Assembly: GCF_004118375.1 (NCBI RefSeq)
Contig: NZ_SDHX01000001.1
Coordinates: forward strand, 186,001-250,000
DNA: 64,000 nucleotides
DNA from: Oleiharenicola lentus
GTDB lineage: Bacteria > Verrucomicrobiota > Verrucomicrobiia > Opitutales > Opitutaceae
Reading direction: 5' to 3'
Position 1 is the stretch's first letter. The number at the start of each line of letters is the position of its first letter. Below, piece by piece: positions 33,600 through 44,974 of the stretch. A program made the position numbers and the translations under genes. The notes under the pieces are model-generated. The model made no database searches and was not told the origin of the DNA. It worked only from the letters and a program-made list of their open reading frames with translations.

Positions 33600-34931
33600 T
33601 CACCCCGCCTTCAACTCCACGCGCCGGATCTCGCCGACGATCACGAGGTAGCTGGCCACGGCCAGGGCGGCATGTGCGCTCACATAGACGAGCGCCCATT
33701 GGAATGATCCGGTGGCCGCGAGGATGTAGCCGATCACGATGGGGGTGATCGCGCCGGCGAGGTTGCCGAAGGTGTTGAACAGCCCGCCGCTCAGGCCGAT
33801 GGCCTCGCGCGGGGCGACGTCGGACATCACCGCCCAGCCGAGCGCACCCACGCCCTTGCCGAAGAAGGCCAGGCTCATGAAGAAGATCACCGCCGCCGTG
33901 GAATTCACGTAGTTGCAGGCCACCATGCTCACCGAGAGCAACAGGCCGGTGACGATCGGAAGCTTGCGCGCGAAGCTGAGCGAGCAGCCGCGTTTCAGCA
34001 GCCGGTCGGAAATCCAGCCGCCAAGAATGCCGCCAACAAAACCGCAGAGCGCGGGCAGCACGGCGATGAAACCGACCTTGAGGATCGTCAGGCCGCGTTC
34101 CTTCACGAGGTAGATGGGGAACCAGGTCAGGAAAAACCAGGTAAGGACGTTGATGCAGTATTGGCCGATGAAAATGCCGACGAGCATGCGGTTGCCGAGC
34201 AGTTCCCAAATGAGGCCGGGCCGGGTCTGCGCTCCGGCGCTCTTCGCGCCGTCGAGATCCACGAGGCCGCCGCCCTTCCGAATGTGATCCACCTCGGCCG
34301 CATTGACCCGCGGATGGTCGCGCGGGCTGTGGATGATCCGCGGCCAGAGCAGACCGATCAACAATCCGAGCCCGCCCATGCTCCAGAATACCCACGGCCA
34401 GCCGAGGTGGTGCGTGAGCGCACCCATGAGCGGGTAGAACAACACCGTCGAGAAATACTGCGCGGAGTTGAAGATGGCCGAGGCGAGCCCGCGCTCCGCG
34501 GCCGGGAACCAGCAGGCCACAATGCGGCTGTTGGCCGGGAACGAGGGCGCTTCCGCCGCGCCCAGCAGGATGCGCAGGGTGAAGAGCGTCACCGCCGCCG
34601 TCATGCCGGCGCCGACCGCGCCGACGAAGCCCTGCAGAAAGGTGAAGAAGGACCACGTGAGAATGCTCCACTGGTAGACGCGCTTCGTGCCGAGCCGGTC
34701 GAGCAGCCAGCCGCCAGTAATCTGCAGCGCCACGTAGGTCCAGGAGAAGGCCGACAGCAGCCAGCCCAGCGCGACGGAGTCGAGCTGCAGATCCTTGCTC
34801 AGGGTCGGGCCGACAATCGAAAGTGTCGCCCGGTCGGCGTAGTTGACCGTCGTGACGATGAACAGAAACGCCACGATGCCGTAGCGGACCCGGGTGGGTG
34901 GGGGCATGGCACCGGGGGCGGAAGCGCTCAT
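33600..34931 (-). CDS. MFS transporter, anion:cation symporter type (aldarate/hexuronate)
   Basis: A 443-residue major facilitator with twelve predicted helices. The N-terminal half carries NYADRATLSIVGPTLSKDLQL, GWLLSAFSWTYVALQITGGWLLDRLGTKRVY and LRILLGAAEAPSFPANSRIVACWFP, matching the ACS family of hexuronate, glucarate and galactarate symporters. It is 16 bases downstream of the KDG dehydratase gene on the same strand, so it is likely the importer of the aldarate that the dehydratase pathway consumes. Exact substrate is inferred from context. Confidence 0.88.
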   Translation of the reverse strand: MSASAPGAMPPPTRVRYGIVAFLFIVTTVNYADRATLSIVGPTLSKDLQLDSVALGWLLSAFSWTYVALQITGGWLLDRLGTKRVYQWSILTWSFFTFLQGFVGAVGAGMTAAVTLFTLRILLGAAEAPSFPANSRIVACWFPAAERGLASAIFNSAQYFSTVLFYPLMGALTHHLGWPWVFWSMGGLGLLIGLLWPRIIHSPRDHPRVNAAEVDHIRKGGGLVDLDGAKSAGAQTRPGLIWELLGNRMLVGIFIGQYCINVLTWFFLTWFPIYLVKERGLTILKVGFIAVLPALCGFVGGILGGWISDRLLKRGCSLSFARKLPIVTGLLLSVSMVACNYVNSTAAVIFFMSLAFFGKGVGALGWAVMSDVAPREAIGLSGGLFNTFGNLAGAITPIVIGYILAATGSFQWALVYVSAHAALAVASYLVIVGEIRRVELKAG

Positions 34932-34947: not shown

Positions 34948-35859
34948 TTACTGCGGGCCGAGCGCCTGGATCAACGCCGCGAGCTTGGCCGATTCCTCGG
35001 CGCTCAAATCCACCAGCGGCGGGCGCACGGGGCCGGCGTCGTGGCCGACGATTTTTGCGCCGGCCTTGATGATGCTCACGGCGTAGCCGGGCTTGCGGTT
35101 GCGGATCTCGAGGTAGGGCAGGAAGAACGTGTCGAGCAGCCGGCCCATCGTCGCGTGGTCGTCCGCCGCCACCGCGCGGTAAAAATCCATCGCCGTCTTC
35201 GGGATGAAATTAAACACGGCCGACGAATACACCGGCACGCCCAGCGCCTTGTAGGCCGCGGCATAGACCTCCGCGGTCGGCAGGCCGCCGAGGTAGGCGA
35301 AGCGGTCACCGAGCTTGCGGCGGATGGACACCATCAGCTCGATTTCGCCGATGCCGTCCTTGAAGCCGACGAGGTTCGGGCAGCGCTCGGCGAGTTTCGC
35401 GAGGGTGTCGGCCTGGAGGCGGCAGGCGCCGCGATTGTAGATGATCACGCCGAACTTCACGCTGCGGCACACGGCTTCGACATGGGCGGCGAGACCTTCC
35501 TGGCCGGCCTCGGTCAGATAATGGGGCAGCAGCAGCACGCCCTGCGCGCCGAGTTTCTCGGCTTCCTGCGCGTAGGCGATGGCCTGGCGCGTCGGGCCGC
35601 CGACTCCGGCGACGATCGGCACGCCGTCGCGGCAGGTGTCCACGGCCGTCTTCACGACCGCGCCATAATCGGCCGGCGTCAGGGAGAAAAATTCGCCCGT
35701 GCCGCCCGCGGCGAAGAGCACGGTGGCGCCGTAGGGCATCAGCCACTCGAGGCGCTGGCGGTAGGTGTCGGCGCGGAAATCGCCGGCGGCGTTGAAATCG
35801 GTGACCGGGAAGGAGAGCAGCCCGGACGACATGGTTCGCTTCAGCACTTCAGGAGTCAT
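34948..35859 (-). CDS. kdgD: 5-dehydro-4-deoxyglucarate dehydratase
   Basis: A 303-residue DHDPS-superfamily (beta/alpha)8 enzyme: [59 protein letters not shown] and [14 protein letters not shown], with the Schiff-base lysine in GFKDG. The GTGEFFSLT block, in place of GTTGEF, is typical of KDG dehydratases, which convert 5-dehydro-4-deoxy-D-glucarate to 2,5-dioxopentanoate with loss of CO2. ATG 35859 is used. It is divergent from the UxaA/GarD-like gene, whose product would be its substrate. Confidence 0.92.
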
Positions 35860-35931
35860 GGTGCGCGAGTGGGGTTGGCGGGGAACGTGCCGCCGGCAAT
35901 CGGTCGAGGCAAGACCCGAGCGGGCAGGGCG

Positions 35932-35945
35932 GTTCATCGGTGAAC
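35932..35945. promoter_or_regulatory. candidate operator between kdgD and the UxaA-like gene
   Basis: GTTCA-TCGG-TGAAC, a perfect 5-bp dyad with a 4-base spacer (GGTTCATCGGTGAACT), in the divergent promoter region. Suitable for a dimeric regulator controlling both sides; no regulator gene is adjacent. Confidence 0.4.
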
Positions 35946-36000
35946 TAGGACACACATTTTCGCCATGACTCGTGCGCGCGCCGGACTAGGTTGCAGGCCC

Positions 36001-38733
36001 ATGAGCACCCCGTTGCCCTTCCCTGCTGTCGGCCGGTTGCCCGCCCCGGGCGACAATGTCGCCATCGCCATCCGGCGGCTCGAGGCCGGCACGGTGGTCC
36101 TGCTCGACTCCGGCGCGCGCACCCTCGCGCACACCGTGCTGGAGGGACACCGCTTCACCGTGCGCCCGGTCGCGGCTGGCGAGGCGTTGCTCTCCTGGGG
36201 TCTGCCGTTCGGGCACGCGCTCACCGCGATCCCGGCGGGCACCTACGTCTGCAACCAGTCCATTCTCGACTGGCTGGTGTTGCGCCGCGTGGAGCTGACG
36301 ATTCCGACGCAGCCGAATTTCGCGGATCACCTCGTGCCCTTCGTGCTCGATGAGGCGGCTCTGCGTCCCGCGCCCCCCGTCGAACTTGTCCCGCAACCCC
36401 GCAACTTCGCCGGCTACCGCCGTCCCGGCCAACGCGGCGTCGGCACGCGCAACACCATTGTCATTCTCGGCACGACCTCGCGCACGGCGAGTTTCGCGCG
36501 GCAGCTGGCCGCCCGTCTGCAGGCGCTGGCGCGCGTGCATCCTTCCCTCGACGGCATCGTGGCGGTCGCGCACACCGAGGGCGGCGGTCCGGGCGAGCCC
36601 AACAACAGCGCGGAGATCCTGCGCGCGCTCGCCGGCTTCATGGTGCATCCGAATGTCGGCGCGGTGCTCGCGGTGGACTACGGTGTCGAGCCCGTGAACA
36701 ACGCGCGGCTTCAGGCCTTCATGCGCGAGCGCGGCTACCCGCTGGCCGACGTGCCCCACGCGTTCCTCAGCATCACGCGCGGTCTCTCTGCTGCGCTCGC
36801 CGAGGGCGAGGCGCTCGTGCGCGGCTGGTTGCCCGCCGTCGCCGCCCAGCGCCGCACCGCCGAGCCGCTGGCGCACCTGCGCGTGGCGTTGCAATGCGGC
36901 GGCTCCGACGCCTTCTCCGGCGTCTCCGGCAACCCGCTCGCCGGCGCGATGGTGCACGAGCTGGTCCGCCACGGCGGCATCGGCGTGCTCTGCGAAACCG
37001 ACGAGCTCGCCGGCGCCGAGTCCTACCTGATGAAGAACGTGCGCGACGCCGCCACCGCGCGCGCGTTGCTCGACCGGATTGCGCGTTTCAAGGAGCGCCT
37101 CGCGTGGCATGGCGTCACGCCCGAGAGCAATCCCTCCGCCGGCAACAAGCTGCGCGGCCTCTACAACATCACGCTCAAGTCGCTGGGCGCCGTCCACAAG
37201 AAGGACCCGCGCTCGCGCATCGACCATGTGATCGACTACGCCGACCCGCTCGGCGCGCCGGGCTTCTACTTCATGGACAGCCCGGGCAACGACCTCGAGG
37301 GCATCGCCGGCCAGGTCGGCGCGGGCTGCAACCTGTTCCTCTTCGTCACGGGCAACGGTTCGATCACGAACTTCCCCTTCGTTCCCACGCTCAAGCTCAC
37401 CACGACCACGCGGCGGCACGAGCTGCTCGTGCACGAGATGGACATCAACGCCGGGCGCTACCTCGACGGTGAAAGCTTCGCGTCGCTCGCCGCGGAGTCG
37501 TTCGAACTCTTGATTGCGTCCGCCTCCGGCCAAAAGACGAAGGGTGAGCTCGCCGGACACTCGCAGGCCTCGCTCTGGCGCAACTGGCGACAGACCGACA
37601 CCTCGCGCCTCGCCGAGATCCGCGCGCGGCCCGCACCGGACGGCAAGCCGCTGGTGGCGCGACTTGACCCCAAGGCGCGGGGGGATGGACGCAGCGGGGA
37701 AAAGCGCGCTGAGGTCAGCACGCTCCACCTCTATCCGAACGGCCCGCGCTTCGGCGCGGAGCGCGTCGGCCTCGTGATGCCGACCAGCATGTGTTCGGCG
37801 CAGATCGCGCGCCTGGCGGCCGACCGCATGAACGCCACGGGTCTCGCCGGCCGGCTCGGCCTCGACCGCTTTGTGGCGCTCGCGCACTCCGAGGGCTGCG
37901 GCTTTGGCGGCGAGACGATGTATCACCTGTTGCACCGCACCTACCGCGGCTACGCCACGCACCCCAACGTCGCCGCGGCGCTCCTGCTCGAACACGGCTG
38001 CGAAAAGGTGCCAAACGACGTTATGAAGCGCCAGTTCGAGTCGGCCAACCTCCCGCTCGACCGGTTCGGCTGGGCGAGCGTGCAGCTCGACGGCGGCATC
38101 GACAAGGCGCTCGGCCGCGTGGGCGCGTGGTTTGAGAGCGCCCTCGCTTCGCGGCCCGCCACGACGCGGGTGCCGGCCGGGCTCGGGGCGCTCACCGTCG
38201 GCGTGCTGTCAGCCGGTCCTCTCGGCCCGGCCGGCACCGCGGCGCTCGCCGGCGCGCTCGAGGAAATCCTCGCGGCCGGCGGCTCGGTGCTTATCCCCGA
38301 GGGCGACCGGCTGCTGGCGGATGAGCGTTTCCGCGGCGCCTTGCTCGGGCGCACCGCCCCGCACGCCACGCTCGCCTATGGGCAACCGCTCACCGACGCG
38401 GGCCTGCACGTCGTGCAAACCGACACCGACCACTGGACGGAAAACCTCGCCGGCCTGGGCGCCTGCGGGGTGCAGGTGTTCCTTGGCATCGTCGGAGACA
38501 CTCCCCAGCAGGGCCACCCGCTGCTGCCGCTCTGGCAGCTGGCGGAGGCCGGCACACTGTCGCCCGGCGCGGCCGAGGATGTGGATCTCATGCTCGCCGG
38601 TGAAGCGGCGGACGCCGGCACCATCCTCGGGCTCGTGGCCGCCGCGGTTTCCGGCGAGCGTTCGCCCAAGGCCAATGCCGGCGGCTTCGTGGACTTCCAG
38701 CTGAGCCGCGGCTTGCTCGGGGTGACGACCTGA
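36001..38733 (+). CDS. internally duplicated UxaA/GarD-family dehydratase
   Basis: A 910-residue protein of the altronate/galactarate dehydratase family, about twice the usual 500. First copy: SAF-like domain (about 18-100), a UxaA N-domain (about 138-275, VGTRNTIVILGTTSRTASFA, AVAHTEGGGPG, VDYGVEPVNN) and a C-domain (about 290-540, SPGNDLEGIAGQVGAGCNLFLFVTGNG and HEMDINAGRYLDG). Second copy without SAF: N-domain (about 580-700, MPTSMCSAQIA, ALAHSEGCGFGGE, EHGCEKVPNDV) and a degenerate C-domain (about 710-900, TENLAGLGACGVQVFLGIVGDTP). Cysteine motifs are kept only in the second N-domain. Beside kdgD and an aldarate-type transporter it probably dehydrates galactarate or a related acid. Confidence 0.8.
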   Translation: MSTPLPFPAVGRLPAPGDNVAIAIRRLEAGTVVLLDSGARTLAHTVLEGHRFTVRPVAAGEALLSWGLPFGHALTAIPAGTYVCNQSILDWLVLRRVELTIPTQPNFADHLVPFVLDEAALRPAPPVELVPQPRNFAGYRRPGQRGVGTRNTIVILGTTSRTASFARQLAARLQALARVHPSLDGIVAVAHTEGGGPGEPNNSAEILRALAGFMVHPNVGAVLAVDYGVEPVNNARLQAFMRERGYPLADVPHAFLSITRGLSAALAEGEALVRGWLPAVAAQRRTAEPLAHLRVALQCGGSDAFSGVSGNPLAGAMVHELVRHGGIGVLCETDELAGAESYLMKNVRDAATARALLDRIARFKERLAWHGVTPESNPSAGNKLRGLYNITLKSLGAVHKKDPRSRIDHVIDYADPLGAPGFYFMDSPGNDLEGIAGQVGAGCNLFLFVTGNGSITNFPFVPTLKLTTTTRRHELLVHEMDINAGRYLDGESFASLAAESFELLIASASGQKTKGELAGHSQASLWRNWRQTDTSRLAEIRARPAPDGKPLVARLDPKARGDGRSGEKRAEVSTLHLYPNGPRFGAERVGLVMPTSMCSAQIARLAADRMNATGLAGRLGLDRFVALAHSEGCGFGGETMYHLLHRTYRGYATHPNVAAALLLEHGCEKVPNDVMKRQFESANLPLDRFGWASVQLDGGIDKALGRVGAWFESALASRPATTRVPAGLGALTVGVLSAGPLGPAGTAALAGALEEILAAGGSVLIPEGDRLLADERFRGALLGRTAPHATLAYGQPLTDAGLHVVQTDTDHWTENLAGLGACGVQVFLGIVGDTPQQGHPLLPLWQLAEAGTLSPGAAEDVDLMLAGEAADAGTILGLVAAAVSGERSPKANAGGFVDFQLSRGLLGVTT

Positions 38734-43678: not shown

Positions 43679-44974
43679 TCAGAACCAGTCGCTCGCCGAG
43701 GGCGCGTTGCCGCCGACGCTGAACTGCAGCACCTGGCTGACCCGCGTGTTGACCTGCCGGCCGCCCTTGCGACCGGGCTCGAACCGCCACTGCGTCACCG
43801 CTTCGAGCGCGGCCGTTTCAAAATCGTGGTGGGTGGACTTCTCGACCTTGGCCTCGCGCACCACGCCGGTCTTATCAATCACCAGAGACACGACCACGCT
43901 GCCCTCGATGCCGGCGGCGCGCAGCGCGGCGGGGTAGGCCGGTGATTTTCGCGTGAGCGCCTTGGGCGGGCTGTCGAGTTCCTTCATGGAAAGCGGGTCG
44001 CTGCCTGCGGCGGGGGCAGCGGGCCGGGCTTTGGGCTGGGCCGCGACCTGGAGTTGCTGCTGCAGGGCCACGGCCTCGTTGCGCAGGCGCACGAGCTCCT
44101 CGTCGGGGATCTCCAGGTTCGCGGCCGGGGGATCGAGTGGGGCCGCCGTGGAAACCGCCGGCGGGGCGGCGCGGGTGGCCTGAGATTCCATTTGGAGGGC
44201 CGCGATCTCGGCGCGCAGGTCGGCGTTGCTGGATTCCTGCACGGCGTAGATGCCGGCGCCGGTGGCGACGACGGCCCCGGCGAGGGTGAGTTGGAGTTTG
44301 GTGAGGCCCATAAAGACGAGGGTGGAGGTCACGCCGCCGGCGAGCGCGGTGCCGGTGACCGCGGCGGCAAGGCCGGCGGGCGCGGCGACGACGGCCTGGT
44401 TGGCGAGGACCAGGGAGAGGGCGGCGGCGGTGGAGCGAACGCCGCGGCGGGCGAGCAGACCACGGAGCTTGTCGAGCGCGCGGTCGGTGCGCATGCGCGC
44501 AGCGTGGTCGGAAAGGGCGAGCCGCGCGCCGACATTGGCGTAGTCGCGGCCCTCGAAATACCGGAGCAGGATCGCCTCGCGGTCCTGCTCGTTCAGCTCG
44601 GCGAGGGCTTCGTCGAGCACCGGGCGCACGCGCTCCCAGTCGAGCGAGTCGGTCGGGTCGGATGCTTGCATGAGTTCGGCCTCCAGTTCGCGGATGCGCC
44701 GGCGCGATGCGCCCCGCACGAGCTTGGCTGCGGCGAAGCGCGTGCTGGTGAAGAGCCAACCGGCGAGCACCGGCCGGCCGGCGAGCGTGGCCGCCTTGCG
44801 GGCGAGGTCGGTGAAGACGAGCTGCGTGACGTCCTCCGCGAGATGGGCGTCGCCGTTGACCTGCCGCAGCGCCGCGGAATACACGAGGTTGAGATGCCGG
44901 CGCACCAGCTCGGCGAAATCCGTTTGGGAGCGGGTCTCGGCGTAGGCACGGAGGAGGTCGGCGTCGTCCTTCAT
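43679..44974 (-). CDS. ECF sigma factor fused to a transmembrane segment and TonB C-terminal domain
   Basis: A 431-residue fusion. Residues 1-180 form an ECF sigma factor: region 2 ([39 protein letters not shown]) and region 4 ([45 protein letters not shown]). A hydrophobic stretch (about 228-246) follows, then a coiled-coil and Pro/Ala linker, and a TonB C-terminal-like domain (about 338-422: [30 protein letters not shown] and [11 protein letters not shown]). A membrane-tethered sigma with an external TonB-like domain suggests direct signal sensing without a separate anti-sigma. The start ATG is only about ten bases from an extended -10-like element. Confidence 0.88.

Follow-up and report, generated by a model that had tools for sequence, protein, structure and literature searches.

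The window, a stretch of 64,000 nucleotides of the Oleiharenicola lentus genome, contains a gene (P0001) whose inferred product of 910 residues carries two copies of the UxaA/GarD unit in a single chain. We regard this product as probably a fused pseudo-homodimer of the UxaA/GarD family of iron-dependent sugar-acid dehydratases with one working site that spans both copies. The pattern of residues kept and lost suggests that the two halves, each of them worn, jointly make one functional active site, and the division of motifs between them is, as judged from the alignment, a family-wide conserved pattern across many phyla and no local decay.

The open reading frame spans positions 35965–38733, and a start at 36001 is plausible. 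The presence of two UxaA/GarD copies had been proposed in an earlier note on this DNA and was borne out by Pfam, by profile comparison, and by structure search. Pfam recognized GD_AH_second twice and GD_AH_C twice in the chain, with totals above cut-off for both PF04295 (151.6 bits) and PF20629 (267 bits), each in two stretches. Copy 1 (residues 1–530) consists of an SAF domain, an N-domain and a C-domain, as the note had it, and copy 2 (residues 575–910) of an N-domain and a C-domain. The Pfam match to SAF (17.2 bits) was below the gathering score of 21 bits, but the region could be aligned to the UxaA SAF structure 3k3s (E 2.7e-9 by phmmer against the PDB; VIA Z 13.7), and the protein thus has the N-terminal SAF domain of the UxaA/GarD superfamily (COG2721). 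The features of the gene are as follows.

36001..38733, forward strand: double UxaA/GarD gene (P0001), uninterrupted open reading frame of 910 codons plus stop.
36052..36249, forward strand: SAF domain, residues 18–83; single, with no second SAF ahead of copy 2.
36406..36453, forward strand: FxGYRRxGxRGVGTRN motif of the copy-1 N-domain, with R141, R150 and N151; not conserved in copy 2.
36412..36837, forward strand: copy-1 N-domain (GD_AH_second), residues 138–279; the cysteine positions are R161, G195 and V229.
36871..37587, forward strand: copy-1 C-domain (GD_AH_C), residues 291–529; intact, with C299 at nucleotides 36895–36897.
37591..37722, forward strand: linker between the copies, residues 531–574; zero invariant positions, pLDDT below 50 at residues 561–564.
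37723..38181, forward strand: copy-2 N-domain, residues 575–727, with C598 (nucleotides 37792–37794), C633 (37897–37899), C667 (37999–38001), E668 and Q695.
38182..38679, forward strand: copy-2 C-domain, residues 728–893; degenerate and shortened, with 3 of 166 positions invariant.
38680..38730, forward strand: C-terminal tail, residues 894–910, FQxxRGxxG; 5 of 17 positions invariant.

The 17-residue tail is thus conserved although it directly follows a degenerate domain.

Both halves are recognizable as GarD protomers. Profiles from 98 double proteins (of low diversity; HH-suite Neff 2.6 and 3.8) were compared by HHalign with a profile of 70 single-copy members of the family. Copy 1 aligned over 482 columns (E 4e-102) and copy 2 (residues 566–910) over 329 columns with a probability of 99.9% and an E value of 2.4e-34, which excludes the possibility, raised in the earlier note, that the second half is unrelated to UxaA. 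A phmmer search of the PDB retrieved GarD (6u7l, E 1.9e-37). Structure prediction of the full chain, which the note had recommended, was carried out with AlphaFold2 (71 sequences) and gave a pLDDT of 91.1 and a pTM of 0.91; such a pTM for the whole chain implies that in the model the two halves have a defined packing. Copy 1 in the full model superposed on an entire chain of GarD (Z 44.1, rmsd 3.3, 446 residues), and a model of copy 2 alone (67 sequences; pLDDT 93.6, pTM 0.93) superposed on residues 112–523 of GarD chain D (Z 27.7, rmsd 3.8, 300 residues). Because both halves superpose on GarD, the chain can be viewed as two GarD protomers in tandem, the second without an SAF domain. Copy 2 also matched UDP-GlcNAc 2-epimerases weakly in the VIA search (Z up to 9.1), which we ascribe to a common Rossmann arrangement.

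The cysteines of the double protein are unevenly distributed. The alignment comprised 98 distinct full-length double proteins, including that of the window (17 partial ones were left out), and the single-copy set comprised 70 of 74 members, four over-long frames having been excluded. Among single-copy proteins all four family cysteine positions were occupied (CCCC) in 65 of the 70; four lacked the three N-domain cysteines and one was truncated. Among the double proteins copy 1 read xxxC and copy 2 read CCCx in 98 of 98, so that the arrangement that the note had named as contrary to its view, with the ligand sites of both N-domains intact, occurs in none of the full-length sequences compared. 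In the window's protein, the N-domain motifs of copy 1 read TSRTAS, HTEGGG and YGVE, and those of copy 2 read TSMCSAQ, HSEGCG and HGCE, just as had been quoted. Moreover, in a census of cysteine columns, only C299, C598, C633 and C667 were present in all 98 double proteins, the next commonest being C84 (80/98) and C443 (65/98). The four cysteines of the superfamily (COG2721) are therefore all present, divided 1 + 3 between the copies; in place of an ordinary protomer of about 500 residues with four cysteines, there are 910 residues in which neither copy is complete. According to PMC6336799, four cysteines are conserved throughout the superfamily with the exception of sulfolactate sulfo-lyase; the paper suggests that they hold one ferric iron and describes C-to-S variants and EPR. 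We equate the cysteines of that paper with the positions of C299, C598, C633 and C667 because the order is the same and because both sets are the conserved cysteines of the family.

The four single-copy proteins without the three N-domain cysteines (L139, L140, L021 and L023) all keep the C-domain cysteine. This sequence pattern hints at a separate role of its own for the C-domain cysteine, and it indicates that the N-domain cysteines and the C-domain cysteine need not always cooperate, which counts against a shared site.

The remaining residues of the site are also unevenly divided. We identified 58 near-invariant columns among the single-copy proteins, seven in the SAF domain, 14 in the N-domain and 37 in the C-domain. 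Four of the seven SAF positions are kept, in copy 1 only. Among the 14 N-domain positions, R141, R150, N151 and N218 are kept only in copy 1, whereas C598, C633, C667, E668, Q695 and, marginally, G666 are kept only in copy 2; two are present in both copies and two in neither. The 37 C-domain positions are divided into 26 kept in copy 1 only, five in both, six in neither and none in copy 2 only. Copy 2 thus retains 5 of 37 as compared with 31 of 37 for copy 1, in agreement with the claim of the note that the C-domain of copy 2 is degenerate. The RxxGxxGxRN motif and SAF are retained in copy 1 only, and R141, R150 and N151 are each kept at a fraction of 1.00 in the double proteins. Likewise, 77 of 240 positions of the copy-1 C-domain are invariant within the double proteins (in at least 97 of the 98), as against 3 of 166 in the copy-2 C-domain. 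Near-invariant residues lost from both copies number 8 of 51 for the N- and C-domains together, which is not clearly rarer than the 10 or so expected by chance. Also, copy 1 still holds H191-T192-E193-G194 and N218; its N-domain is therefore not simply dead. Both observations count against the shared-site reading.

How might two such halves function together? A fused dimer could in principle hold two composite sites related by symmetry. One, site A, would be composed of the SAF domain, the RxxGxxGxRN motif and the C-domain (with C299) of copy 1 together with the C598, C633 and C667 loops of copy 2. Its mirror, site B, would be composed of the C-domain of copy 2, the cysteine loops of copy 1, the RN motif of copy 2 and a second SAF domain. 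All of the elements of site A are strictly conserved, and all of the elements of site B have been lost. If a site draws its cysteine loops from one protomer, and SAF, the RN motif and the C-domain from its partner, then a fused dimer could retain one site and drop the mirror site, which is what the sequences show; if, on the other hand, the site lies inside one protomer, then neither copy is complete, although the protomer fold is kept in both. Given that both halves keep the predicted protomer fold, a shared site would sit between two protomer-like halves, where one Fe (or Fe-S) site across the copies would perform the dehydration, the rest of copy 2 serving as a scaffold. We infer that the four cysteines would form one site, that it would be located between the copies, and that its reaction would be the dehydration of a sugar acid. 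The suggestion in the earlier note that active sites are built from domains of different copies is thus supported by the 1 + 3 division of cysteines in 98 of 98 proteins and by the predicted protomer folds, but its plural is not, as there would be one site and the mirror looks dead.

A comparison of secondary structure between models with and without copy 1 bears on this arrangement. In the presence of copy 1, strand was gained only at residues 635–636, which directly follow C633-G634, and at residues 908–909, which belong to the conserved tail. Judged indirectly from this gain, the C633 loop and the C-terminal tail both seem to contact copy 1 in the model.

Alternatively, copy 1 alone might catalyze the reaction without N-domain cysteines, in the manner of sulfolactate sulfo-lyase, with the three cysteines of copy 2 holding an iron or Fe-S center of their own, structural or regulatory in role. 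Copy 1 is predicted to fold as an entire GarD protomer, sulfolactate sulfo-lyase is exempt from the cysteine rule in PMC6336799, and the four single-copy relatives that lack three cysteines do retain that of the C-domain. However, copy 1 does not group with these four on the tree, where it forms a branch of its own (SH-aLRT 97, starred) while they lie among the single-copy proteins, and its loops differ from theirs. Furthermore, copy 2 has lost the RN motif and SAF yet has kept its cysteines, as the residues should be divided if a single site is shared, and the C633 loop gains strand only in the model that includes copy 1. We therefore consider catalysis by copy 1 alone to be improbable. Still less probable is a site shared between two separate double chains, to which one would contribute the copy-1 C-domain and another the copy-2 N-domain: the sequence pattern by itself cannot separate pairing within a chain from pairing between chains, but two fused protomers already constitute a dimer, and the prediction for a single chain (with its high pTM) has a defined packing of the halves without a partner. 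Finally, it is very unlikely that catalysis has been lost in favor of a binding or regulatory function, for although the protein scores far under the cut-off of the GarD equivalog TIGR03248 (190.1 versus 730.85 bits) and some canonical residues are replaced in copy 1 (for example, K by R51, G by R385 and G by N457), the 77 invariant positions of the copy-1 C-domain hold across the double-protein family, and kdgD and a transporter gene, or genes for an FAA hydrolase and a KDG permease, adjoin some members.

The double protein can be compared with several known systems. GarD, the galactarate dehydratase of Escherichia coli (PDB 6U7L), has the same three-domain protomer as copy 1, with four cysteines visible in the alignment, but its chain is a single protomer of about 520 residues that holds all four cysteines, and its equivalog model, as noted above, does not take in the double protein. 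Eukaryotic phosphofructokinase, of an unrelated fold, is built from duplicated halves, and one of its active sites is degenerate. The METTL3/METTL14 pseudo-dimer likewise has duplicated halves, one with a degenerate active site, and an unrelated fold; the difference from both is that in the double protein each half seems to contribute necessary parts to the surviving site. We know of no cysteine-bearing partner half for the sulfolactate sulfo-lyase SuyAB. No NCBIfam name confirmed a SuyB-like label for L139, L140, L021 and L023. According to PMC6336799, SuyAB belongs to the same superfamily and, like copy 1, falls outside the cysteine rule, but differs from the double protein in being heteromeric. 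The same paper places the D-arabinonate dehydratase C785_RS13685 and UxaA in the superfamily (COG2721); they share the four conserved cysteines, for which a role as iron ligands is proposed. These enzymes differ in being single-copy and act on D-arabinonate or, for UxaA, D-altronate. In a literature search from which subscription journals were mostly absent, we recognized no paper on a two-copy UxaA/GarD protein.

The double gene occurs in many phyla. The 80 loci retained, most of them metagenome-assembled, come (as judged from their titles) from Opitutaceae, Chloroflexota, Gamma- and Alphaproteobacteria, Poribacteria, Latescibacterota, Gemmatimonadota, Acidobacteria, Rubrobacter and others. 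Named isolates that carry the double gene include Rubrobacter taiwanensis, Thioalkalivibrio sp. HK1, Rubrobacter indicoceani and Pantoea soli. Matches at E ≤1e-200 were found in 8 of 387 species genomes of the window's phylum (one partial), and matches at E ≤1e-100 in 20 of 296 species genomes of one phylum sample (its center included; one sequence partial). Occurrence within the window's own genus is patchy, and one genome of the genus (G019) has a double-gene fragment (L019) with internal stop codons, apparently a pseudogene. Among the relatives no stand-alone copy-2 proteins and no two-gene versions were found; the 17 partial matches looked to end at the edges of contigs or fetched loci.

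Phylogeny of each half had been advised, and a tree was built by a quick method from 84 rows (44 of the 70 single-copy sequences, and 20 of the 98 double proteins with each copy as a row) with the cysteine columns removed. Copy 1 (SH-aLRT 97, starred), copy 2 (100, starred) and the single-copy proteins (92, not starred) each formed one group, in keeping with a single old event of duplication and fusion. The branch of copy 2 is long, and its exact placement is unsure. A fusion of two different subfamilies was considered, but copies 1 and 2 fall together on the same side of the tree (SH-aLRT 92, not starred, with copy 2 on its long branch), and internal duplication is the simpler reading.

As to substrate, two genes lie beside the double gene on the opposite strand.

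34951..35955, reverse strand: kdgD, for 5-dehydro-4-deoxyglucarate dehydratase, the divergent neighbor of the double gene (TIGR03249, 437.8 bits; cut-off 373.95).
33600..34931, reverse strand: MFS sugar-acid transporter of the D-galactonate transporter subfamily (TIGR00893, 461.7 bits; cut-off 395).

The substrate of KdgD, 5-dehydro-4-deoxyglucarate, arises when galactarate or glucarate is dehydrated, and the kdgD neighbor suggests that the double protein of O. lentus probably acts on a hexarate. In a search of the 4.7-Mb genome for the UxaA/GarD and GudD families, no PF20629 member besides the double gene was found and no GudD scored above cut-off (22.6 versus 828.7 bits), so that among these families the double gene is a good candidate for the hexarate dehydratase that is otherwise missing. 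A kdgD neighbor (more than 500 bits) was present in just 6 of the 80 loci of relatives, and so the hexarate assignment draws on the Opitutaceae only. Ten neighbors in close relatives without kdgD revealed nothing consistent, and among 129 neighbors of distant members (of 163 picked, the remainder having been dropped mainly as near-duplicates), no Pfam family was dominant, the top ones being SMP-30 lactonase or short-chain dehydrogenase in at most 4 of 129. For these reasons, gene context was rejected as a decisive guide to substrate. The copy of P. soli lies beside genes for a GntR regulator, an FAA hydrolase and a KDG permease, and substrates may differ among members. On a plasmid of R. indicoceani (L133), the double gene is flanked by two genes for Nramp-family divalent metal transporters, perhaps linked to metal supply, and is adjoined by a gene for a GntR-family regulator.

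Elsewhere in the window, positions 43682–44974 (reverse strand) encode a 431-residue protein in which sigma-70 regions 2 and 4 (residues 23–171) are joined to a TonB C-terminal domain (residues 344–418), making it a fusion between TonB and a sigma factor of the ECF type.

In summary, the finding of the note is confirmed, on firmer ground than it had at first. The double protein represents a new architecture and a subfamily of an enzyme family that is already known, and most likely has one site shared between the copies; the annotation "UxaA family hydrolase," which the copies of R. indicoceani and P. soli bear, conceals this distinct subfamily. Among the PDB matches listed (PDB to April 2026), full-length UxaA/GarD structures are represented by 6U7L alone, and its metal site reportedly holds calcium. 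The N-domain reportedly forms the dimer interface of GarD. A natural division of ligands between fused protomers, without exception in the 98 sequences compared, offers a testable answer to where the catalytic iron of the family is located, and the double chain allows each half to be mutated separately. If the shared-site reading is right, then ordinary UxaA/GarD enzymes probably assemble their iron site across the dimer interface. We lean, by a small measure, toward this view for the whole family: three second-domain cysteines would come from one protomer, and the fourth, together with the substrate-binding C-domain, from the other, in which case the double enzyme would be a natural one-site heterodimer in a single chain.
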